21,434 nucleotides of DNA from a virus, in IMG/VR virus record IMGVR_UViG_3300028364_000168, positions 1 to 21,434 of that record; one strand, written 5' to 3'. Position 1 is the stretch's first letter. Every line of letters begins with the position of its first letter. The notes under the pieces were generated by a model that was given only the letters and a program-made list of their open reading frames with translations, was not told the DNA's origin and ran no database searches. This document shows positions 1,411-21,066 of this stretch, piece by piece. The position numbers and the translations under genes are program-made.

Positions 1411-1623
1411 ATGCTAACAGTCCTAAAGGTGTTTGTATCAGGTCTTAGAGTTATACTAGAAACAACAGCAGCTGTATTTCTTTCTATAGTTATACTCTCA
1501 ATGTTTCTTTTCCTTACTATTGGACCCTTGGTGTTAACTATAGACCTAGAGCAACCTTGGTACCTAACAATTTACCTAGTTACTATTCTTTTATTTGGAC
1601 TATTAGAGGAGAACACATGTTAA
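1411..1623 (+). CDS. Small membrane protein, two predicted spans
   Basis: A 70-aa protein with two strongly hydrophobic segments, roughly residues 20-43 (AAVFLSIVILSMFLFLTIG and onward) and 50-64 (WYLTIYLVTILLFGLL), separated by an acidic turn (DLEQP). Ribosome binding site GGAGG lies eight bases before ATG 1411. The last seven bases overlap the polymerase start (ATGTTAA), so polymerase translation is probably coupled to it. The size and topology would suit a phage inner-membrane protein (superinfection exclusion, holin-like, or replication anchoring), but nothing in the sequence chooses among these, and early placement argues against a holin. Confidence 0.75.
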   Translation: MLTVLKVFVSGLRVILETTAAVFLSIVILSMFLFLTIGPLVLTIDLEQPWYLTIYLVTILLFGLLEENTC

Positions 1624-3043
1624 CAGTAGTCTCGGATTGCGAAACAGATGGGCTAGACCCAGACAACCTGTGGTGTGTAGTCAATAAGGAACTAGGGGGA
1701 AAGTCCTACAAAGCCTGGGACATAACCTCAGGGTATGATACCTTCATTGACTACGCAAAAACAGTAGACCGTTGGGTATTCCACAACGGCATAAGCTACG
1801 ATGGTCCCGTGATAAATAAACTACTCGGGTCCACGGTAATTGATCCCTTTAAAATCTGTGACACCTTTGTTGTCTCCCGCCTTGTGAACTATGTAGGGTA
1901 CAACGGTCACGGACTAAACGAGATTGGTATATCATTAGGGCAAGCCAAGACAGTGTTCAACGATTGGGAGAAGTACACCCCAGAGATGTTGTCCTACTGT
2001 GAAGACGACGTAGACTTAGGCACCAAGATATACAACAAGTACAAGAAGTATATCGACGATCCTGCTTGGGCTATGTCAATGGAAACTGAGCACCGTATGG
2101 CTATGTTGTGTAAGAAGATGCACGACAATGGCTTTAAGTTTAACCTACAGCTTGCTAACGAAGTACTACCTCAGATACAGGACAGACTCGACGAGCTTAG
2201 TGCAGGGATGCAACGAGCATTCCCACCTGAGCTTAAGGAGGTTCATCGCATACAGTATCGTACTAAGGCAGACGGTGAACTGTATGTCACCACAGCTAAC
2301 GCTATGGATAACTTTCCTAAGACTGTAATCGAGGGGGACGAACTGGTGTGTTTCAACTGGGTATCGTTTAACCCTGGGTCTCACCTCAACCGTATTGATA
2401 AACTATGGGAGGCAGGGTGGGACCCTACTGAGAAGTCCAAGTCACACTACAAGTTCTCTCAACGGGGTGCAGTAGGTGACAAGTGGGGTAAGAAGATACT
2501 AACTCAAGAGATGTACGACAAGAAGAAGGAAGAGTTTGACCACTATGGTTGGACAGTAACAGACGAGAACCTTGGGACACTGCCTAGTACGGCACCTCAG
2601 GGCGCTCGTGACCTTGCTGAGTGGTTGTGCCTCAATGGTAGACTCAAGCCACTAGAGGAACGTATCAGGGAGTGTGAGAGTGACGGACGTATCCGTACTA
2701 ACTTCTGGCATATTGGCGCATGGACTCACCGGATGTCCCACTCATCTCCTAACCTAGCTAACATCTCCTCACCATTTCACGGTGAAGCGGTGACTGCGGT
2801 TGACCTAGTTAAGGAAAGGTTTGACGGTCAACTACGTGCTATGTTTACAGTGGACGAGGGTAACTGGCTGGTAGGTACAGACGCTGAGTCTATCCAGCTG
2901 CGTATCCTAGCTCACTACCTAAAGAACGACGAGTACGTACAGGCTATCCTTGAAGGGAGAAAAGAAGATGGAACAGACATCCACAACGTTAACCGTGCAG
3001 CACTCGGACTTGGTCACCTTACTCGGGACCACGCCAAGACTTT
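1617..3043 (+). CDS. DNA polymerase (family A, T7 gp5 type), exon 1
   Basis: First exon of the phage replicative DNA polymerase: residues 1-475 plus two bases of codon 476. Start ATG 1617 is chosen because GAGGAG lies just upstream; the frame extends 60 bases further up but without a comparable site. The N-terminal 3'-5' proofreading domain has ExoI D7/E9 (SDCETDG), ExoII HNGISYD (56-62) and ExoIII Y127xxxD131. The polymerase domain begins in this exon with the NFWHIGAWTHRMSH segment and motif A (LVGTDAESIQLRI, catalytic D422), then the start of motif B (R470 and K474 in TRDHAKT). The T7 thioredoxin-binding insertion region appears shorter here, with about 45-50 residues before SFNPGSH. Read without splicing, the frame hits TAG at 3051-3053, inside the intron. 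Confidence 0.93.
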
Positions 3044-3323
3044 TAACACGTAGAAGTCTATAAACTCGGTGAACTCAGGGAAACTCCTAACGTAAAGACG
3101 AGGACAATCCTGAGCCAAGCTAAGTAAACAAAGCTATTGATTACTTAGAAGGTGCAACGACTATCGAAAGCACATCGAAAGATGGAAGTTAGTAGAGTAC
3201 ACCCAAGTGGGTGGAAGCGCCGAGCACTCTAAGGAGAGTGGTGATATAGTCTGCTCTGCATGGAGACATGCAGCAGTTCATAAGAGAACGGGCTGAGCCT
3301 AACGAACTCAGTTGAACATAAGG
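3044..3323 (+). ncRNA. Group I intron (IA2/td-like) in the DNA polymerase gene
   Basis: A 280-nt insertion interrupts polymerase motif B. P1: exon bases 3037-3043 (AGACUUU) pair with 3053-3059 (GAAGUCU), leaving a U.G wobble at the 5' splice site. P7: GACUAU 3159-3164 pairs with AUAGUC 3246-3251. P8: CACUCU/AGAGUG (3225-3230 with 3235-3240). Extra hairpin CACCC/GGGUG (3200-3204 with 3209-3213), as IA introns have near P7. P9: CUGCAUG-GAGA-CAUGCAG (3256-3273, GNRA loop). The 3' end GAACAUAAGG closes with the terminal G (3323). The stretch GAUAUAGUCUGCUCUGCAUG and the GAACAUAA 3' end are, from memory, almost identical to the phage T4 td intron. It contains no ORF. Splicing restores the T7-like reading KTFIYAWLLGAG. 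Confidence 0.92.
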
Positions 3324-3810
3324 TATCTACGCTTGGTTACTCGGGGCAGGAAGTGGCAAGGTCGCTCGCATCCTGGGATGTACAACACAACAGGCTAAAG
3401 GAGCGGTGGATTCTTTCGTTGAACGTACCACGGGACTTGGGAAACTTAAATCAGGACTTATCCGTAGAGATGCAGCCCGAGGTTACTTTGAAGGTTTCGA
3501 CGGTAGAAAAGTTATATGTCCCTCAGAGTACTTGATGCTTGCAGGGTACTTGCAGAACGGAGAAGCTGTAATCATGAAGAGAGCCAACTGGTTATGGGAC
3601 AAGTGGTGTACAGAAGATGGCTTGAACTTCAAGCAAGTCAATCTGGTTCACGATGAGTACCAAACAGAAGTTTGTGGGACGTATGAAGAAGCAGAAAGAG
3701 TAGGTTACCTACAGTGTAAAGCTCTTGTAGCTACAGGAGAAGAACTCGGATTGTTTTGCCCAATGTCTGGTGAGACACGAGTAGGGAGGTCTTGGCTTGA
3801 AACCCACTGA
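3324..3810 (+). CDS. DNA polymerase (family A, T7 gp5 type), exon 2
   Basis: Second exon; the first T completes the Phe476 codon, and the spliced protein is 637 aa (T7 gp5 is 704). It carries the rest of motif B/O helix (IYAWLLGAGSGK, Tyr478 equivalent to T7 Tyr526), DGRKVICPSEY matching T7 DGRKVHVRSPH, and motif C LVHDEYQ with catalytic D586 and E587. The position equivalent to T7 Tyr530 is Leu482, a departure from T7 and E. coli Pol I (both Tyr). Tyr at the T7 526 site is what T7 itself has. Without splicing this exon has no appropriate start, so production of active enzyme depends on the intron. The 3' end overlaps the endonuclease gene by 14 bases. Confidence 0.93.
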
Positions 3811-4213
3811 TAAACGGTGTAAGCATTGTAAGGAGTATAAACCAGCAACCTTCAACTTCTTCTTTAGAAAGAAATCTGCTAAGGATGGCTACACCCCAGA
3901 CTGTAAAGTCTGTCACGTTGCTAAAAACAAGGCAAACCCTAACTTCATAACTCAACAGAGAAAGTCATGGTTAAAAACTAAATACGGTATTACCCCTGAA
4001 GACTACAACAGTTTGTACAAAGAACAGGAAGGACTCTGTGGTTGTTGTGGCGAGCCTAGCAAAGAGACCTACCTCTGCGTTGATCACTGTCATTCTACTA
4101 AAGAAGTAAGAGGTTTGTTATGTCGTATGTGTAACAAGAGTATCGGAGGTCTTGGAGACACAGTTGAAGGTTTACAGAAAGCGATAGACTACTTAAAGAA
4201 ACACACACACTAA
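3797..4213 (+). CDS. Endonuclease VII-like HNH (His-Me finger) nuclease
   Basis: A 138-aa protein with the recombination endonuclease VII signature: YGITPEDYNSLYKEQEG (63-79), C81/C84, VDHCHS (95-100, catalytic His97), RGLLCRMCN (105-113) and GGLGD. An extra N-terminal CxxC pair of pairs (C8/C11, C36/C39) probably forms a second zinc knuckle. In T4 this family cleaves Holliday junctions and branched DNA; related stand-alone copies act as homing or nicking enzymes. The start is TTG 3797, seven bases after GGGAGGT; ATG is absent nearby. It overlaps the polymerase stop, and it lies just downstream of an ORF-less intron, so a role in intron mobility is possible. A PD-(D/E)XK resolvase candidate exists further on, so the resolvase job may not be its own. 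Confidence 0.85.
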   Translation: MKPTDKRCKHCKEYKPATFNFFFRKKSAKDGYTPDCKVCHVAKNKANPNFITQQRKSWLKTKYGITPEDYNSLYKEQEGLCGCCGEPSKETYLCVDHCHSTKEVRGLLCRMCNKSIGGLGDTVEGLQKAIDYLKKHTH

Positions 4214-4623: not shown

Positions 4624-4652
4624 TTGACACAACTCTAAGACTAACTTACTAT
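4624..4652 (+). promoter_or_regulatory. Sigma70-like promoter upstream of ssb
   Basis: TTGACA (4624-4629), a 17-nt spacer and TACTAT (4647-4652), continuing TAAC. The same layout, TTGACR-N17-TACTATTA, recurs before thyX (11357) and before the 13525 gene. It sits in one of the few intergenic gaps (4621-4693) on the + strand. The transcript would begin about 30 bases before the ssb start, whose binding site is AGAGGAAT. The -10 TACTAT matches consensus at four of six positions; the -35 is perfect. Confidence 0.8.
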
Positions 4653-5612: not shown

Positions 5613-5875
5613 GCACTTCTACAAACTATGCAGCACAGATGATGATGCAACTAGACACCACTGTAACACTACGTCTTATCACAGTGCTGGAGGATATCGA
5701 GGCAGCTAATGACCCTGCTCACATCTCCTTCTATGACTCTCTCAATGAGACCTTGTCCTTCATGCTTAAGCCTGAGGAGCTAGAGCGATTGTCTACCCGT
5801 GATATTAACCCTGCGTGGCTCACTACTGTGGCGAACCAAGTTGAAGACGCAGAGGTGGTCACTGAGGATGCCTAA
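5609..5875 (+). CDS. Hypothetical protein (88 aa)
   Basis: An acidic, largely helical protein (MSTSTNYAAQMMMQLDTTVTL..., NETLSFMLKPEELERLS) ending in an acidic tail (VEDAEVVTEDA). The start is ATG 5609 in an ATGA overlap with the previous stop; the end overlaps the nuclease start by eight bases. No family is recognised. Such small acidic proteins just upstream of an exonuclease could be partners or inhibitors, but nothing in the sequence shows that. Confidence 0.6.
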   Translation: MSTSTNYAAQMMMQLDTTVTLRLITVLEDIEAANDPAHISFYDSLNETLSFMLKPEELERLSTRDINPAWLTTVANQVEDAEVVTEDA

Positions 5876-6740
5876 AGATATCTCAACACTTATCCCTGAT
5901 ATTATGAAGGTGGTTGACGGGGAAAGGGGGTGGGACGAGACGATCACTAAGTACCTTGCAGATACAATCTCTGAGGTAGCTAGTGAACGTTTCGGTGGTG
6001 TACCGGAGAAGCCTAGGGATACCCTTAGTCTCTCCGGTATTGGCAAACCCTGTGAACGTCAACTGTGGTCTAAGGTAAACGAGCCTGACCAACAGGAAGT
6101 AATCAATGCTGAACTCAAGGGTACGTTCTTCTATGGTGACCTACTGGAAGCCCTAGTGATTGCTCTTGCTAAGGCAGCAGGGCATGACGTACAAGGAGAG
6201 CAAGATGTTCTCTACGTCAATGGTATCAAAGGTCACCGTGACTGTATCATCGACGGGTGGACTGTTGATGTTAAGTCTGCTAGTGACTTCTCCTTCGAGA
6301 AGTTTAAGCGTGGAGACCTAGCTTCTAATGATCCCTTCGGTTACTGCAGTCAGCTCAGCTCCTACCTCTACGCTGGTCAAGACGATCCACTGGTTACCGA
6401 GAAGAACAAGGCAGCTTTCCTTGTCATCAAGAAGAACCGCTTTGAGTTGTGTCTCGACGTACATGACTTCACTACCCGCCTACCCCACAAGGAAGCTGAG
6501 GTACAACACAAGAAGGACATGGTCAAAGGCCCTATGCCGCCCATCCCTGCTGTTGCTGCTCCAGTTCCTCAATCAAAGACTTCACCTAACATGAAGTTGT
6601 CAACGCTGTGTACTTACTGCTTTCGTAAGAAGAAGTGCTACCCTGGGATGCGTACTTTCATGTACTCAGGTGGTCCATCGCACCTCACCTTCGTAGGTAA
6701 GGAACCACAGGTACCAGAGATTAACAAGGAGATTTGGTGA
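5868..6740 (+). CDS. PD-(D/E)XK exonuclease with Cas4/AddB-like Fe-S cysteines
   Basis: A 290-aa nuclease of the RecB/Cas4 branch. Motifs in order: GxxE (FYGDLLE, E95), GHRD (D125), the catalytic VDVK (D134, K136) and QLSSY (Q162xxxY166). Cysteines frame the domain: C62 in GKPCERQLW and the C-terminal CxxCx5C (C248, C251, C257). This is exactly the arrangement that holds a 4Fe-4S cluster in Cas4 and AddB. The product probably degrades DNA ends during replication and recombination, taking the place of T7 gp6 exonuclease. Start ATG 5868 is chosen over upstream in-frame ATG 5799 because it joins the preceding gene by a short overlap and fits the family start. A Pro/Ala-rich linker (221-240) precedes the final cysteines. 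Confidence 0.82.
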   Translation: MPKDISTLIPDIMKVVDGERGWDETITKYLADTISEVASERFGGVPEKPRDTLSLSGIGKPCERQLWSKVNEPDQQEVINAELKGTFFYGDLLEALVIALAKAAGHDVQGEQDVLYVNGIKGHRDCIIDGWTVDVKSASDFSFEKFKRGDLASNDPFGYCSQLSSYLYAGQDDPLVTEKNKAAFLVIKKNRFELCLDVHDFTTRLPHKEAEVQHKKDMVKGPMPPIPAVAAPVPQSKTSPNMKLSTLCTYCFRKKKCYPGMRTFMYSGGPSHLTFVGKEPQVPEINKEIW

Positions 6741-11356: not shown

Positions 11357-11385
11357 TTGACGTAGTACTCAAAGTACTTTACTAT
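11357..11385 (+). promoter_or_regulatory. Sigma70-like promoter upstream of thyX
   Basis: TTGACG (11357-11362), a 17-nt spacer and TACTAT (11380-11385) followed by TAAG, the same arrangement as 4624 and 13473. The -35 box begins four bases after the RNR stop. The spacer and -10 edge contain AAAGTACTTT (11371-11380), a perfect 10-bp palindrome, and AGTACT twice, which might be an operator. The leader to the thyX start is about 60 bases. Confidence 0.78.
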
Positions 11386-12326: not shown

Positions 12327-12559
12327 GCAATTACAACCCAGTGAGTAAACCTTCTCACTACAACCAAGGGGACGGCATCGAGTGTATTACCTACATCAAG
12401 CAAGTCCTTGGTCCGGATGGATTCGTAGCATACTGCCGTGGCAACCTCGTTAAGTACAACCACAGGGCTATGTACAAAGGCAATCCTCTGGAAGACCTCG
12501 CTAAGGCACAACAGTACCTAGAGTGGGCCAACGAAACACTAAAGGAGATTCACAAGTAA
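12323..12559 (+). CDS. DUF3310 family protein
   Basis: A 78-aa protein with the DUF3310 pattern: KPSHYNQGDGIECITYI (9-25), GPDGFVAYCRGNLVKYNHRA (30-49) and PLEDLAKAQQYLEWA (55-69). This domain occurs in many phages, among them T7 gp1.7, which affects nucleotide metabolism; the biochemical role of stand-alone copies is not established. It is coupled to thyX by an ATGA overlap and to phoH by TAATG, within the nucleotide block. Confidence 0.78.
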   Translation: MSNYNPVSKPSHYNQGDGIECITYIKQVLGPDGFVAYCRGNLVKYNHRAMYKGNPLEDLAKAQQYLEWANETLKEIHK

Positions 12560-13257
12560 TGGTACAGCAGAAAGCAAAGCCAAAGACTGCTCGTGTGGTA
12601 ACTAAACATGACGTAGACAAGAAGTCTATCAGTATCATCCCTAAGACTGAGAAGCAAGGGGAGTACGTCAAGGCGTGTGTAACCGCTGAGCAAGTTATAG
12701 TTTCAGGACCCAGTGGTTGCGGTAAGACGTATCTTTCAGCATCTGTCGCTGCCTCTCTGTACTACACTAAAAAGATCAATAAGATTGTCATCACTAGACC
12801 TCACGTCTCAGTCGGTGAACGTATCGGTATCTTGCCGGGTGACCTACGTGAGAAGTGTGAGCCTTGGGCACTCCCAGTCCTTGATGTACTAGACAGGCAT
12901 TTAGGGAAGGGAACAGTGGACACTGGAGTTAAGAACGGTAACATCGAGATAGCGCCCTTAGCCCTTATGCGCGGTCGTTCCTTTGAGAATGCCTATTGTA
13001 TCTGCGATGAAGCTCAGAACATTACCTTCCACGAACTCAAGATGCTTCTAACTCGTATGGGTGAAGGCTCTACTCTAATTATGAATGGCGACATAATGCA
13101 GTCTGACCTTAAGGAAGCTGATGGTCTCTCACGTATTATTAACCTTATTAAGAAATACGACATGCCTATCCCCATCATTGAGTTTAGTGTGGACGACATT
13201 GTACGCAGCAGCATGACTAAACTCTGGGTAGAAACGTTTATCAAGGAAGGTGTGTAG
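12559..13257 (+). CDS. phoH: PhoH-like ATPase
   Basis: A 232-aa protein with Walker A GPSGCGKT (50-57), the PhoH hallmark RPHVSVGERIGILPGD (80-95), Walker B CICDEAQN (147-154) and a sensor NGD (176-178). It is a P-loop NTPase related to SF1 helicases; phoH is common in marine phages, but its job in infection is unknown (phosphate stress or RNA metabolism have been proposed). Start ATG 12559 overlaps the DUF3310 stop (TAATG); an in-frame ATG at 12523 lies within that gene. The first ~30 residues are basic and possibly flexible. Confidence 0.9.
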   Translation: MVQQKAKPKTARVVTKHDVDKKSISIIPKTEKQGEYVKACVTAEQVIVSGPSGCGKTYLSASVAASLYYTKKINKIVITRPHVSVGERIGILPGDLREKCEPWALPVLDVLDRHLGKGTVDTGVKNGNIEIAPLALMRGRSFENAYCICDEAQNITFHELKMLLTRMGEGSTLIMNGDIMQSDLKEADGLSRIINLIKKYDMPIPIIEFSVDDIVRSSMTKLWVETFIKEGV

Positions 13258-13484
13258 TGGATGATGAGTTCTACCTAGAGTGTTGTCCCTTCTGTGGACC
13301 CCAACCAGACGGTATAGACAACGTAGTACTAGCTGAAACCAAAGATGTACGAGACGACTACATCCTTGGGTACACAGTGTACTGTCCTAAGTGTGAGTTT
13401 GAGATGACTAATGAGTTTATGGAGGACCTACTGGAAACATGGAACAACAGATTTTATCACCACGAAAACCCCTTGACACAGTAA
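13257..13484 (+). CDS. Lar-like zinc-ribbon protein (restriction alleviation family)
   Basis: A 75-aa protein with CPFCG (10-14), YCPKC (42-46) and a closing ETWNNRFY, the layout of the Lar family (zinc ribbon followed by a WNxR helix). Rac-prophage Lar relieves host type I restriction, so an anti-restriction role is possible; many phage copies are untested. The start is GTG 13257, overlapping the phoH stop by one base after AAGGAAGG; the nearby ATG is out of frame. Its last codons contain the -35 box of the next promoter. Confidence 0.75.
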   Translation: MDDEFYLECCPFCGPQPDGIDNVVLAETKDVRDDYILGYTVYCPKCEFEMTNEFMEDLLETWNNRFYHHENPLTQ

Positions 13485-13501
13485 GTCTACTAGCTTACTA
13501 T
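13473..13501 (+). promoter_or_regulatory. Sigma70-like promoter upstream of small-gene cassette
   Basis: TTGACA (13473-13478), a 17-nt spacer and TACTAT (13496-13501), then TAGTATAAC. This is the third copy of the TTGACR-N17-TACTATTA pattern, again preceded by CC. The -35 box lies within the last codons of the Lar-like gene, and transcription would start close to the 13525 gene's binding site (AAAGGAAG). Confidence 0.8.
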
Positions 13502-13524
13502 TAGTATAACACAAAGGAAGCCAA

Positions 13525-13704
13525 ATGAATAAACTCCACATGAAGTACCAAATCCTGACAACCCTCTGTATGTCCAATAGTAAGTTTACCCCTACTGAGC
13601 TGTTAGAAGCTACCCAAGGGTTGTACGATTTTATTACAGAAGGGGCTGACATGAAGGAAGCAGACGAGTCTTCAGTAACTAACATGTTTACGGTGGTCCA
13701 ATGA
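13525..13704 (+). CDS. Small hypothetical protein (59 aa)
   Basis: The first gene after promoter 13473-13501, with AAAGGAAG before ATG 13525. The protein (MNKLHMKYQILTTLCMSNSK...) is mostly helical, with FTPTELLEATQGLYDFITEG in the middle, and could be a small winged-helix-like or helical binding domain, but that is only an impression. The stop overlaps the next ATG by four bases (ATGA). The function is unknown. Confidence 0.65.
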   Translation: MNKLHMKYQILTTLCMSNSKFTPTELLEATQGLYDFITEGADMKEADESSVTNMFTVVQ

Positions 13705-13901
13705 TCCTAGGGTATATCTTAATCTGCGGTATGGGGCCACTGGAACCAGGGACAATCGAAGGGTGTCGTCTTTTTACACAGCAACACCCCACAGAAACCT
13801 CCTGTGAGGCAGCTCTAATGCGTTTCTATCAAGATGTCACTCTTCGACCTGAGCATTACATCTCAGCAGGAGCGTGCTTTGTAGTGGGGACTGATACATG
13901 A
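13701..13901 (+). CDS. Small hypothetical protein, hydrophobic N-terminus
   Basis: A 66-aa protein beginning MILGYILICGMGPLEPGTIEGC, whose first ten residues are hydrophobic; with no basic start it is not a clear signal peptide. Four cysteines (ICG, GCR, SCE, ACF) could form disulphides if exported. The start overlaps the previous stop (ATGA) and the end overlaps the next start the same way. Unknown function; an envelope role is possible but weakly supported. Confidence 0.6.
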   Translation: MILGYILICGMGPLEPGTIEGCRLFTQQHPTETSCEAALMRFYQDVTLRPEHYISAGACFVVGTDT

Positions 13902-14065
13902 ACACCTTTAAGTTGGGCATCAAACACTTCAATGAGAACAAGTACGACTACTCCCTCTTTGCAGATGGAACAGAAGACAAAAGGAATTACGAGCATGGCT
14001 ACAGCAAAGCTTACTTCCGAAAGCTTGACAACGTCAAAGCCCGAGAGGCTCGCTCCCAAGGGTAG
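13898..14065 (+). CDS. Small hypothetical protein (55 aa)
   Basis: ATG 13898 in an ATGA overlap, running to TAG at 14063-14065. The product (MNTFKLGIKHFNENKYDYSLF... ending KAREARSQG) is rich in Lys, Asn and Tyr with a basic tail. The last 71 bases also encode the next gene in a second frame. No family is recognised; support rests on the continuous chain of overlapping starts under one promoter. Confidence 0.5.
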   Translation: MNTFKLGIKHFNENKYDYSLFADGTEDKRNYEHGYSKAYFRKLDNVKAREARSQG

Positions 14066-14204
14066 ACCTAAGGCCCTTACTAACAGAGAGTACTTTGCAG
14101 GAGTAGGTTTGACATTCTTCATGGAACATAACTATGCAGTATGGGACATGGAGCGTATAAAAAAAGAGGCCTACCTGTTGGCAGACCTCATGATTGAAGA
14201 GTAA
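13995..14204 (+). CDS. Small hypothetical protein (69 aa), overprinted start
   Basis: The start ATG 13995 follows AAAGGAATTAC and is preferred to the in-frame ATG at 13932, which has no binding site. The product begins with a polar, Ser/Thr/Lys-rich segment (MATAKLTSESLTTSKPERL, GRPKALTNRE), then a helical C-terminal half (YFAGVGLTFFMEHNYAVW, RIKKEAYLLADLMIEE). The first 71 bases overlap the previous gene out of frame. It is the last gene of the rightward operon; its stop is four bases before the terminator stem. Confidence 0.6.
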   Translation: MATAKLTSESLTTSKPERLAPKGRPKALTNREYFAGVGLTFFMEHNYAVWDMERIKKEAYLLADLMIEE

Positions 14205-14208
14205 TACT

Positions 14209-14242
14209 GAGGGGGAGCCGTAAAAGTTCCCCCTCTTTTTTT
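14209..14242 (+). terminator. Rho-independent terminator of the + strand operon
   Basis: A perfect 8-bp stem, GAGGGGGA (14209-14216) with TCCCCCTC (14228-14235), an 11-nt loop and seven Ts (14236-14242). It lies in the 40-base gap between the convergent operons. In the - strand direction the same stem is not followed by a T run, so it would act only weakly on the late transcript. Confidence 0.93.
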
Positions 14243-14244
14243 GT

Positions 14245-17200
14245 TTAGTCAAACACAGCTTTGTCTCTACGACCCTCGGCGTCTTGTGAACTCTGGACAC
14301 TATCAAAGAGTAGCTGTAGCTGAGGTATGCTTAAGTCCCCAAGGCTTTCTTCATCAGTACCAAACACTGCTAGCATATCACTAAACGCTTGACTACCCTG
14401 GTTCTTAAGGTTGTTAATGTTGATGATAAGTCCAGCTTCTGCCCTTGGGCCTGATGGAGCGTTAGCAAAAGATTCCTTAACCTCAGCTTTAACCATAGAC
14501 ATGATGTCTTTAAGTGTTTGCTCCTTTTCAGGTAAGCTCCGAGCAGCCCAACGACCATTACTCAAAAGCTCGTCAGCCCTATACTCAAGCAACGGGAAGA
14601 TAAATTGTTCGTAAACCTCCTGTGCTTCCTTGTTTTCCATACGAATGTTAGTCTGCCATTGAGGCTTACCAATGTCATTAAAGAGACGACCAATGGAGGA
14701 TGTAACAGGAACCTCTCTTGAACCTGAGATACGCCCTGGGTTTACCCCAATGTTCCTGTTGTTTGTAGCGTTGAAGTTCTGTGTGCTGTAAGCTTTAGCT
14801 ATGCCTTCACCAACAACAGGTATGTTCTCCAAACCGATTATACTGTCAACGATCTGGTCAGTGTACCGTAGTGCATTGTTTAGGTGTTTGTTACCGATGT
14901 TACGTGCAGGAGAAACATAGTCCTCTCCTTCAGAGAAAGCCATAGCAGTGTTGATTGGATCAAGGAAACGAGTACCACCTGAGCTATACATGTTTATAGT
15001 AGCCGACAGGGTGACAGGTATTACGTCGCCGTAACCTGCTTCACCAGCGAATATATCTTCAGCCAGTTGCTGCACACCTCCAGCTGCGTCCCCTAGTCCA
15101 CGGGTAACAGAAGGTAGCGCGAACGTGGCAAGATACTCTTGATACAAAGGCCGAGGCACCCCGCCATCTCTTTGCATGTGAGCACCCATACGACCAATAA
15201 TCTTCCAGAAAGAAAGAGGGAAGTCATAGAGTCTAGACACAACTTTACCGTCAGAGTTACGCTCTTCGTGCCAAGCGAGTCCATTCTCAAGGTTGTCCAT
15301 TTCCTTTATAGTTGCTACAGCTATAAGGCCCCAGCCAGCAGCAGCCCTTGTAAGCAGCTCCATACCCGACTTACTTGTTTTAGTGTAGGGTTTTAGAGCA
15401 AGGGAGATACCTGTGTGATCCGCCATGAAGACAATAGAGTTGTTGAAGAACTGGCCGAAAGGGATCAGAGCACCGAGGACAGGAACGTTACGGGCTTCCT
15501 CTAGAATGTCTGCAACAAACTCAAGGTTTGTACCGGAGTTACGTTGACCAAACTTACGTGCAAAGACGTTACCAAGGGATTGTTCAACAGCAAGCGCTTC
15601 TATCTCCATGAAGTCCTGATAGCTTGCACCCTTCTGCGGGTCCTTAAGGAGAGTAAAGATGTCGTCTCTCTGCATAAAGTCGTTGTAAGACATGTTGTAT
15701 TTGTTACGGATGTTTAGGTCTAAGGCGTACATAAACTCTTGTGACTTAGTCAGCATGTCCTGAGCAGTAACTCCATACATAGTCTGAGCAAAATCCATAG
15801 CCTTCGTCATTCCTGTCCGTGGATCAGGGCTGTCGTCGATTATACGGTTAACCTTAGCTAGTGTGTCTCCGTTATCAACACCACCAGAGAGATAGCTAAA
15901 CATAGCCTTCTGCGCCTCAGGGCGGTGCATAAGGTAGTCCAGTGTTTCATCCCGAGTACCTTGGGGGTTAACAAGGTTTCTAAACTTATTGACCTGTGCT
16001 TTGTAAGCGTTACCAGCTAGACGACGATAGTCAGCGGCACCGACAGAGTCTCCCACAGCGTTCTTTAACACAGAGTAACCTCCGTAGAGAGTGCCCTTCA
16101 TCATATCAACAGTGGACTGCATGGCACTAGCGTAAGCCCAACCAACAACGTTAAGAGCTGTAGTAGCAGGGTGGGTAACAAGCATACGAATGAAACCATT
16201 CTGGAAGTTACTAGACCATTGTTTAAAACCGTCAGGTCCATCCAGCTCTTTACCACCAGTCATGTTTTTAACACCCACAGATACAACGTCAGCATCAGGG
16301 GTGCCATCGGGTACAAAAGCCCTTGACCGTTTAGCAGCCCCAAGGCTGCCAAGGACAGAACCAGACACACTGGCTACCTCAGCTCCTTTTGCCAGAATCT
16401 CGTCAAGGTCTAAAACCTTACCGTCAGCATTCTGGAAGACACCATCGACTAGAGTCTCAATCTGCTCTCTCCACTCAGAAGGAAAGTTCTCATCTTTAAT
16501 AACATCGCTGTACCACCCAGCCCTACGCTGACCTAGTCTAGCGTTTAGAGAGTCGATAGGAATACCAGCGTCGTTAAAGAAACTCTTCAGTCCTCCGTAG
16601 AACTTTACAAACTCAACGGGTGAGATACCCTCTGCATCAACCCCACGACCAGCAGCAACCAACTCCTCAAAAGGAGTGAGAAAGTTACGTAGTGATTGTT
16701 GTACAACTTCATCTTCTTGTGTCTCTGCTACACGAGCAGCAGCACCCTCGGCTTCGTCCACACGTTTAAGAGCTTCTTCAAACTTCTCCTCACCCCTCTG
16801 GAGGCTAGTACCAGCAGTGTTGGTAGGACTCCACCCACGGGTCATCAGAAGGCCACCTTGTAGTCCACCCCCTACGACACCCCCGAGTGCAGAGATGGCA
16901 CCCTGAGTAGCGTTGTAGCCCTCCTGACGACCTGACATACGGTCTACACTTTGTATACCAGCGTCAGCAGCTACACCAGCAGCAGAATCTAACACAGAGC
17001 TACCTACAATGTCACCCACTACACGACGACGACCAGCTGTTTGACCAGCTTCAGTACCCAACTCTTGAAAACCCCTAGTCATTACCCGTGACCGAGCTTG
17101 GTTAGCAACCTGAGCAGCAGCTTTCTTAGAAACACCACGGGTGATAGCAGCTTTAGACGCAGCTTCACCAGCAGCGCGAGCCACAGACTTAAGAGCCTGA

Positions 17201-17664
17201 GTAGCACTACGGGTTGCAAGAGCACCCCCGGCTTTACCGAAGCCAAGAGACACAGCGTTTACAGGGTCAAGTATGATGGACCTAGCGTAGTCTCCTACCG
17301 CATCAAACCTCTCCCCAGCAGTTGTGTTCTCATTAAACGCTCCACCAAGAGAGTCCCAAAGGTCATAAGCAGAACCAGCAGTAGCCCTACGTGAGTCCAG
17401 CTCTGCTCCTTCACCTTTGTAAAGGTGGTTCATCTCCTGAATAACGTCAATAGAGTTACCAGAGTTAAACCCACGCATAGAGTTAACAAAGGAATCTCTA
17501 ATCTCTTCACGAGAGTAGTCATCCTCTGTCATTCCGTTACGGTCCTCCATGTAGGCAGCGACTGTGCTAAACTTGTCGTCGTCCAAGAGGTTTGATACAG
17601 TGAGTGGTCCTCTGTTAGGTTGACCTTCTTCAGAGTCTTTTAGGAGGTGAGAGTATCTTGACAT
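14245..17664 (-). CDS. Large internal virion/DNA-ejection-type protein
   Basis: A 1139-aa protein, the last gene of the leftward late operon. Composition and size fit the big internal proteins (T7 gp15/gp16-like role) that podoviruses inject to span the cell envelope. An alanine-rich, helical region with small apolar patches lies near residues 130-190 (ILDPVNAVSLGFGKAGG, AARAAGEAASKAA), followed by AGVAADAGIQ and GGVVGGGLQGGLLM; the second half has further long helical and apolar stretches (ALIPFGQFFNNSIVFM, GWGLIAVATI). No lysozyme motif is present; that activity appears to be in the separate 20311-21066 gene. The start 17664 follows AAGGTAAAT, overlapping the previous stop region. The assignment rests on size, composition and position. 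Confidence 0.65.
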   Translation of the reverse strand: MSRYSHLLKDSEEGQPNRGPLTVSNLLDDDKFSTVAAYMEDRNGMTEDDYSREEIRDSFVNSMRGFNSGNSIDVIQEMNHLYKGEGAELDSRRATAGSAYDLWDSLGGAFNENTTAGERFDAVGDYARSIILDPVNAVSLGFGKAGGALATRSATQALKSVARAAGEAASKAAITRGVSKKAAAQVANQARSRVMTRGFQELGTEAGQTAGRRRVVGDIVGSSVLDSAAGVAADAGIQSVDRMSGRQEGYNATQGAISALGGVVGGGLQGGLLMTRGWSPTNTAGTSLQRGEEKFEEALKRVDEAEGAAARVAETQEDEVVQQSLRNFLTPFEELVAAGRGVDAEGISPVEFVKFYGGLKSFFNDAGIPIDSLNARLGQRRAGWYSDVIKDENFPSEWREQIETLVDGVFQNADGKVLDLDEILAKGAEVASVSGSVLGSLGAAKRSRAFVPDGTPDADVVSVGVKNMTGGKELDGPDGFKQWSSNFQNGFIRMLVTHPATTALNVVGWAYASAMQSTVDMMKGTLYGGYSVLKNAVGDSVGAADYRRLAGNAYKAQVNKFRNLVNPQGTRDETLDYLMHRPEAQKAMFSYLSGGVDNGDTLAKVNRIIDDSPDPRTGMTKAMDFAQTMYGVTAQDMLTKSQEFMYALDLNIRNKYNMSYNDFMQRDDIFTLLKDPQKGASYQDFMEIEALAVEQSLGNVFARKFGQRNSGTNLEFVADILEEARNVPVLGALIPFGQFFNNSIVFMADHTGISLALKPYTKTSKSGMELLTRAAAGWGLIAVATIKEMDNLENGLAWHEERNSDGKVVSRLYDFPLSFWKIIGRMGAHMQRDGGVPRPLYQEYLATFALPSVTRGLGDAAGGVQQLAEDIFAGEAGYGDVIPVTLSATINMYSSGGTRFLDPINTAMAFSEGEDYVSPARNIGNKHLNNALRYTDQIVDSIIGLENIPVVGEGIAKAYSTQNFNATNNRNIGVNPGRISGSREVPVTSSIGRLFNDIGKPQWQTNIRMENKEAQEVYEQFIFPLLEYRADELLSNGRWAARSLPEKEQTLKDIMSMVKAEVKESFANAPSGPRAEAGLIININNLKNQGSQAFSDMLAVFGTDEESLGDLSIPQLQLLFDSVQSSQDAEGRRDKAVFD

Positions 17665-20310: not shown

Positions 20311-21066
20311 TTAGGTTGCGCCTAAGTATCTGCTTGCTCGCGAGCGACGGTATTCAGGAGAGGGACGAAGGAAGTGGTTTACAATCGCAGCCCCAGCCTC
20401 ACCAGCTGTGCTCGTCGCAAAGATTTTACCAGCAGCAGAAGACTCAGAGCCTTCCAGTTCCATCATCAAGAAGTCAAGTTGAGCATCTGTATCTGAATAA
20501 GGTACACCCCTGCTGTCAGCAAAGGTTTCGTATTCAACACGACGTGGCCCAGTGAGTTGGTAGAGACCAAAACCCCCACGAGACCCTGGGACCAAAGGTA
20601 CAAGCTCGTTGATGCCTGAGTCAAGACCAGACTCATCTTTGAAGTTCATAACGAAACCAGCAGCAACGTGCGGCTCAAGACCTCTGTCTACCAGGCCCTG
20701 TCTGAGTTCTTCAGCGTACGTACTATCGCCTACTCCACTTCGTGATCGAGGGCGACTACCAGAGGAAGTGTTCTCAATAGGACTCATGTCCAGAGCACCT
20801 GTAGTACTCTGTTCTCTACTCGCTCGCTCAGCGCGTAACTCGTCAATGTTACTCATCCAACTATTGATACTGTCCTTAGGACTATACTCAGCTTCCTGTG
20901 CTTGCCCCATGCGTTGGAGAGCACGACTAGTTTCATCCTCTGATCTAGCAATCTCCCTCTGAGCTAACCCAATACGTTGCTTAGAGGTACTCACTGTGTC
21001 AGGTGTTTCACGCCGCCCACGAGAATTACGTTGGGCACGAAACTGCTTGATAGAGTTCTCAATCAT
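20311..21066 (-). CDS. Tail lysozyme-domain virion protein
   Basis: A 251-aa protein. The first ~95 residues are charged and probably coiled (SKQRIGLAQREIARSEDE), then a linker with SRPRSRS (104-110), then a phage tail lysozyme-type domain: YAEELRQGLVDRGLEPHVAAG (117-137), FKDESGLDSGINE (142-154, E145 the likely catalytic acid), GGFGLYQLTGPRR (164-176), TDAQLDFLMMEL (193-204) and ATSTAGEAGAAIVNHFLRP. Such domains cleave peptidoglycan locally as DNA enters the cell. In T7 this function is fused to gp16; here it is a separate protein next to the large internal proteins. ATG 21066 follows AAGGAATAAAAA. Confidence 0.78.
   Translation of the reverse strand: MIENSIKQFRAQRNSRGRRETPDTVSTSKQRIGLAQREIARSEDETSRALQRMGQAQEAEYSPKDSINSWMSNIDELRAERASREQSTTGALDMSPIENTSSGSRPRSRSGVGDSTYAEELRQGLVDRGLEPHVAAGFVMNFKDESGLDSGINELVPLVPGSRGGFGLYQLTGPRRVEYETFADSRGVPYSDTDAQLDFLMMELEGSESSAAGKIFATSTAGEAGAAIVNHFLRPSPEYRRSRASRYLGAT

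Follow-up and report, generated by a model that had tools for sequence, protein, structure and literature searches.

Gene content and signals of the junction cassette

The window, by which the whole 21434-base virus record is meant, contains two main gene blocks that converge. The rightward block encodes a split family A DNA polymerase, ThyX, a DUF3310 protein, PhoH and a protein 49% identical to the ribonucleotide reductase region of phage CRP-9. The first gene met in the leftward block, labelled virA here, codes for a protein of 1139 aa that is 35% identical to CRP-9 gp36 over 98% and matches CRP-207 and CRP-603 more weakly. Since CRP-9 has been assigned an HMO-2011-type late module (PMC8528129, excerpt), homology of the large convergent-block protein to that of CRP-9 identifies the window, by sequence, as a phage with HMO-2011-type late genes. 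Phages of this type are described as dominant and of wide oceanic distribution (PMC9038755, excerpt). At the meeting point of the two blocks, four small genes face the leftward block. They are listed below with their predicted signals and neighbours.

12523-13257, plus strand: phoH (context; PF02562, E 3.3e-62)
13257-13484, plus strand: Lar-like gene upstream of the cassette (context; TIGR03655, E 1.7e-7, below cut-off; phrog_599, E 1.5e-5)
13473-13501, plus strand: putative cassette promoter, TTGACA-17-TACTAT
4624-4652, plus strand: sister promoter, both hexamers exact
11357-11385, plus strand: sister promoter, one mismatch
13525-13704, plus strand: ORF1, 59 aa, no known family
13701-13901, plus strand: ORF2, 66 aa, four cysteines, predicted beta-beta-alpha-beta
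13898-14065, plus strand: ORF3, 55 aa, family also represented in HMO-2011 and CRP phages, weak similarity to ribosome modulation factor (RMF)
13995-14204, plus strand: ORF4, 69 aa (start initially placed at 13932), weak match to phrog_2201, a family without assigned function
13995-14065, plus strand: ORF3/ORF4 overlap, 71 bp, different frames
14166-14189, minus strand: hairpin within ORF4 codons with a T run after it, resembling a terminator of leftward transcription
14209-14235, plus strand: predicted forward terminator, a hairpin followed by a T run (simple scan)
14245-17664, minus strand: virA
20311-21066, minus strand: tail lysozyme-domain protein (PF18013, E 3.1e-20)

The initial annotation had described four small genes of unknown kind with their own promoter and terminator, lying between phoH/lar and the convergent block. 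This description was borne out: the open reading frames, the promoter and the hairpin were located, the genes and the promoter hexamers recur in relatives, and the gene map confirmed the position. None of the four proteins matched a Pfam or NCBIfam family at E<=1, nor did any match a family of known function. The proposed coupling by ATGA applies to ORF1/ORF2 (13701) and ORF2/ORF3 (13898), whereas ORF3 and ORF4 are joined by an out-of-frame overlap instead.

The numbers of promoters (3 versus 3.0) and terminators (2 versus 2.1) detected by scanning were equal to those in shuffled sequences, so the case for the cassette rests on conservation of the promoter hexamers and of the genes. The -35 box of the putative promoter lies within the 3' end of the lar-like coding sequence. 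Both hexamers are invariant 5' of ORF1 in all eight non-redundant loci possessing this gene; L008, where the lar-like gene is missing, also has them. The promoter is thus present, as had been claimed, and conserved, but it is not private to the cassette because of the two sister copies elsewhere in the window. Two to four copies of the pattern occurred in each of five related records searched, while a reversed-pattern control gave no copies in these records and the window. With up to one mismatch allowed, the minus strand of the window contains no copy. Allowing up to two raises the number of matches in the window to five, which is not unusual as 10 of 100 shuffles reached this number. The simple scan revealed no forward terminator in the region 12500-15300 other than that at 14209-14235; read-through from phoH and lar is therefore likely and the cassette is not fully independent.

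The lar-like gene product scored below the curated TIGR03655 cut-off (31.4 versus 39.6 bits) and is accordingly not counted as a member of that family; against Pfam Lar it reached 14.4 bits (cut-off 28.6). Farther upstream, a group I intron at 3034-3273 on the plus strand (RF00028, 91 bits, E 1.8e-22) splits the DNA polymerase gene into two parts, 1557-3053 and 3406-3810; the frame of the second exon resumes at about 3324. The split gene is followed at 3797-4213 by one of the recombination endonuclease VII type (PF02945).

ORF3/ORF4 overlap and hairpin within ORF4

The fourth reading frame is open from 13932. In the related locus L004, a stop codon interrupts the frame after the position matching 13932 and before that matching the ATG at 13965; in L008, the latter ATG is missing. 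The ATG at 13995, preceded by AAAGGA (13980-13985), is the only start common to the window, L004 and L008. For this reason, ORF4 most likely comprises 13995-14204 and 69 codons for amino acids rather than beginning at 13932. The 90-aa reading of ORF4 matched phrog_2201 weakly (E 0.00099), and homologues from L115 and from the CRP-9-like L069 gave E values of 0.00018 and 0.034, respectively. A tblastn search of phage records with ORF4 of the window yielded no match at E<=1.

With the start at 13995, ORF3 and ORF4 share 71 bp that are nearly invariant among the closest relatives. All 68 bases compared are identical in L045 and 64 of 68 in L048. Outside the overlap, identity to the window amounts to 82 (L045) and 81 (L048) of 97 bases in ORF3 and to 101 (L045) and 99 (L048) of 138 columns in ORF4. 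If sites are assumed to be independent and to change at the ORF3 rate, zero changes in 68 have a probability of 1e-5. Recent recombination is a possible cause of this identity. ORF3 of the window is also shorter than its homologues in L045, L048 and L049 (55 versus 61 or 62 aa), ending 6 to 7 residues sooner at the stop codon 14063-14065.

Read on the minus strand, ORF4 contains a hairpin (14189-14166) with a stem of ten pairs, two of them G-T, and a T run after it. When the codons of ORF4 were shuffled synonymously with the peptide fixed, such a hairpin arose in only 6 of 20000 cases, and it was absent from all 14 other window genes tested. Its strict form is present in the window, L045, L048, L050, L053 and L059. 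One T-A pair has been replaced by A-T, a compensatory change preserving the pairing; in L049, a G-C pair has become A-T with pairing preserved, along with one mismatch. In L056/L057, the stem is disrupted. By its G+C-rich stem and T run, kept beyond the demands of the peptide, the element has the properties of an intrinsic terminator, and it is likely that the ORF4 codons carry the predicted terminator of the opposing operon. Compensatory evolution of terminators has been reported (PMC5381666, excerpt). According to the excerpt available of PMC3517423, the Pseudomonas putida phage tf likewise has a predicted rho-independent terminator where two converging units meet. There, a single bidirectional terminator lies between the genes, whereas in the window the leftward one falls within the coding sequence of the last rightward gene. 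The most distinctive result of this analysis is the predicted minus-strand terminator in ORF4, combined with the ORF3/ORF4 overlap: a coding sequence has apparently been preserved by evolution to terminate the opposing operon as well. In L061-L064, L066 and L069, the N-terminal codons of the ORF4 homologue (KKTLEQEAQEF) contain another terminator-like hairpin on the minus strand, some 209-242 bases ahead of the virA stop.

Occurrence in relatives and affinities of ORF2 and ORF3

Relatives were gathered by scans with phoH, ORF2, ORF3 and ORF4. From a scan with a virA alignment, the best 80 of 165 relatives were used, which together with the window gave 81 virA-adjacent stretches and, at 95% identity, 48 non-redundant loci. 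In these 48 loci, iterated profiles (E < 0.001) recognised ORF1 eight times, ORF2 four times, ORF3 six times and ORF4 16 times. The complete set in the order 1-2-3-4 is present in the window, L045, L048 and L049 (4/48). Four loci possess ORF1 and ORF4 (L050, L053, L057, L059), two ORF3 and ORF4 (L058, L115) and six ORF4 alone (L061-L064, L066, L069), while none of the genes was recognised in the remaining 32. In 15 of its 16 loci, ORF4 ends no more than about 60 bases away from the virA stop; in L049, an ORF of 70 aa intervenes. Between virA and the last core gene recognised, 248 to 3647 bp were measured in the 44 of 48 loci that allowed it.

The comparison of this interval for hypervariability, suggested by the initial annotation, gave a mixed answer: the slot does vary, but not in the manner of plain hypervariability. 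In L042/L049, the full set is kept in order though virA is only 46% identical. At about 42-46% virA identity, L050, L053, L057 and L059 have nevertheless retained only ORF1 and ORF4. Because the full set occurs in few loci, subsets occur elsewhere, and the order is kept in the nearest relatives and L049, the slot is called modular within this wide group. The cassette is thus real, conserved in part and modular. Since the set is missing from most loci and no structural role emerged, the data do not show four universally conserved genes of known structural function, which would have contradicted the initial proposal.

In Roseobacter phage CRP-9, gp35, the last protein encoded before the virA homologue gp36, aligns with ORF4 (26% identity), and in the IMG/VR relatives of CRP-9 (L062-L064, L066, L069) ORF1, ORF2 and ORF3 were not recognised. 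In the phage records examined, the small genes at the junction are merely annotated as hypothetical. Among the matches listed for literature on phage RMF, HMO-2011-type roseophages and convergent-gene terminators, the cassette is not named in the portions of text available.

The ORF2 family comprises 22 IMG/VR loci, several of which are copies of one phage. Across 17 sequences three cysteines are invariant; the fourth is lost in L036. Homologues were found in phages with otherwise different neighbours, often 5' of a DUF6378-like gene in the neighbourhoods shown (one tested, the others by eye). Gp39 of Octadecabacter Antarctic DB virus 2 resembles ORF2 (47% identity over 64 residues) but is located in a different context, a run of other small genes followed by a DNA polymerase subunit. 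The model of ORF2 has good confidence (pLDDT 88.3) and predicts a beta-beta-alpha-beta arrangement. Fold searches yielded no match at E <= 0.001; the best E value was 0.051 in the viral library, where the matches include uncharacterised proteins from CRP-4, CRP-5 and P12053L, and 0.85 in the PDB. In a second look (VIA), carboxysome shell proteins ranked first (Z 5.9), while the phage inhibitors p56 and T7 Gp2 reached Z 4.3 and 3.7. These values are at the level of common folds, and no function is drawn from them. A profile search of solved-structure sequences returned two sequences (best E 1.3), and none of 52 pattern matches obtained by scanning GTDB genomes with the ORF2 alignment was confirmed. 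The small four-cysteine proteins encoded 5' of ORF1 in L050, L053, L057 and L059 resemble ORF2, but the comparison, with a probability of 5.2% (score 16.93; maximum of 60 column shuffles 16.24), falls short of establishing homology. L014 was regarded as a chance match.

While ORF3 of the window did not match phage records in tblastn at E<=1, its homologue from L115 retrieved nine records at E <= 1, the best being CRP-345, CRP-1 and CRP-3, then HMO-2011 (E 0.002) and weaker others. HMO-2011 gp20, CRP-1 gp29 and CRP-345 gp38, all hypothetical proteins, are homologues of the ORF3 family. Like that of ORF3, their genes close the rightward block, after ribonucleotide reductase and before the convergent gene; they differ in that mazG stands between the homologue and the convergent gene, that no ORF1, ORF2 or ORF4 is annotated as such and that the proteins have a partly basic N-terminal extension which is missing from ORF3 of the window. 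In CRP-3, the homologue is unannotated and separated from the convergent gene by two others.

Some members of this family weakly resemble RMF, a ribosome-binding protein that favours 100S dimers. Of nine ORF3-family proteins scanned with the Pfam model PF04957 (cut-off 27.9 bits), four gave sub-threshold matches (Ep020 25.6, CRP-3 17.1, CRP-1 14.7 and L115 13.7 bits), and the proteins of the window, L058, L042, CRP-345 and HMO-2011 gave none at E<=1. The match of the CRP-1 homologue to RMF was outscored by a P63C domain. In whole records, the ORF3 homologue was the sole match of the RMF model in CRP-3 (E 0.001) and CRP-345 (E 0.007); none was detected in HMO-2011 or in five IMG/VR records including the window. 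ORF3 and E. coli RMF are similar in length and in the spacing of glycine and aromatic residues, with G16 and G43 kept, though ORF3 is devoid of the basic N-terminus of RMF. Of the four residues required for ribosome binding of E. coli RMF, G16, C29, W40 and W44 (PMC8126665, excerpt), only G16 is retained; both tryptophans are replaced by tyrosine and C29 is not kept. Profile-profile comparison gave a probability of 0.85% (E 0.065, 38 columns) with only four gammaproteobacterial RMFs used, and 0.11% with a smaller ORF3 alignment. The trimmed score of 10.69 is inside the range of 200 column shuffles (mean 8.6, maximum 16.2). For comparison with the helix-linker-helix fold of RMF, the structure model of ORF3 suggests helices at 3-12, 18-21 and 37-53 with low pLDDT (57.9). 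A profile search of solved-structure sequences returned five sequences, none of them RMF (best E 0.52), and E. coli RMF as query did not match the phage records. With Pfam scores below the cut-off, non-significant profile comparisons and lost residues, ORF3 is rejected as a proven RMF; the weak resemblance of the sequences is a lead, not evidence of membership. For phage Milano, two potential proteins of the RMF superfamily have been named (PMC6588377, excerpt). The genome of Pseudomonas phage Ep020 (L132; OQ603351.1, 71094-71222) contains two RMF-like matches below the Pfam cut-off.

Possible role of the cassette

The cassette would be the last transcription unit of the rightward block, whose genes serve replication and nucleotide metabolism. 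It is most likely transcribed by host RNA polymerase from one of several sigma-70-type promoters of nearly identical sequence, and read-through from phoH and lar probably adds to this. Judging from the anatomy of the genes, translation of the four small soluble proteins may be coordinated through two ATGA couplings and one overlap. Host processes, not the virion, are the most likely site of action of these products: ORF3 would be a small ribosome-associated protein with distant similarity to RMF, ORF2 a small beta-beta-alpha-beta binding protein, and ORF1 and ORF4 small partners. Rightward transcription would end at 14209-14235, and transcription from the opposing block most likely stops at the predicted terminator inside ORF4, for which the sequence evidence is good. 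The slot is filled in a modular way, with all four genes in some relatives and subsets in others. Taken as a whole, we give this explanation an even chance of being right. A host-takeover role of the cassette, which the initial annotation had brought up, is plausible. A counter-defence role, mentioned along with it, is a further possibility.

According to the latter reading, the four proteins, together with the Lar-like protein encoded upstream, block restriction or other anti-phage systems. The Lar-like neighbour, in spite of its sub-cut-off score, the occurrence of ORF2 in phages with different neighbours, the modular slot and the small sizes of the proteins agree with such a function. However, the cassette has its own promoter and persists in L008 without the Lar-like gene, ORF2 gave no strong fold match, and comparison with PADLOC, which covers defence proteins only, gave no match beyond chance; that of ORF3 (GajB, E 0.026) is regarded as chance. 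We therefore consider counter-defence rather unlikely, though it is the foremost alternative. Somewhat less probable still are accessory genes of phage DNA and nucleotide metabolism or of late-gene control without a direct host target. It is true that the cassette terminates a block encoding polymerase, ribonucleotide reductase, ThyX and PhoH, shares its promoter type and that ORF3 homologues adjoin mazG in three isolates, but no sequence match to functions of this kind was obtained and the gene content differs among relatives. Minor virion or assembly proteins are very improbable. The cassette adjoins the convergent morphogenesis block, yet it is encoded on the opposite strand with a promoter of the rightward type, and ORF1 to ORF4 are absent from most of the 48 virA-bearing loci.

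A more far-reaching version of the host-directed explanation holds that the ORF3 family consists of phage RMF-like proteins which retune the translation of marine bacterial hosts in the course of infection, and that ORF3-ORF4 is multiple-use DNA, with two overlapping proteins encoded on one strand and, on the other, the terminator for the late operon opposite. This combined proposal is tentative and, in our estimate, doubtful. By the present comparison, the small genes at the junction have become linked across isolates and contigs, and ORF3 has been given a ribosome hypothesis that can be tested.

Further small genes were noticed at or near the slot. L004 possesses one between phoH and the lar-like gene (5735-5950) and L008 one in place of the lar-like gene (1367-1582), both not present in the window. 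In the more distant relatives L087, L112-L114, L116 and L121, a protein of 73 aa with two conserved cysteines (MIWVYTVVMMM...) is encoded near the same slot.
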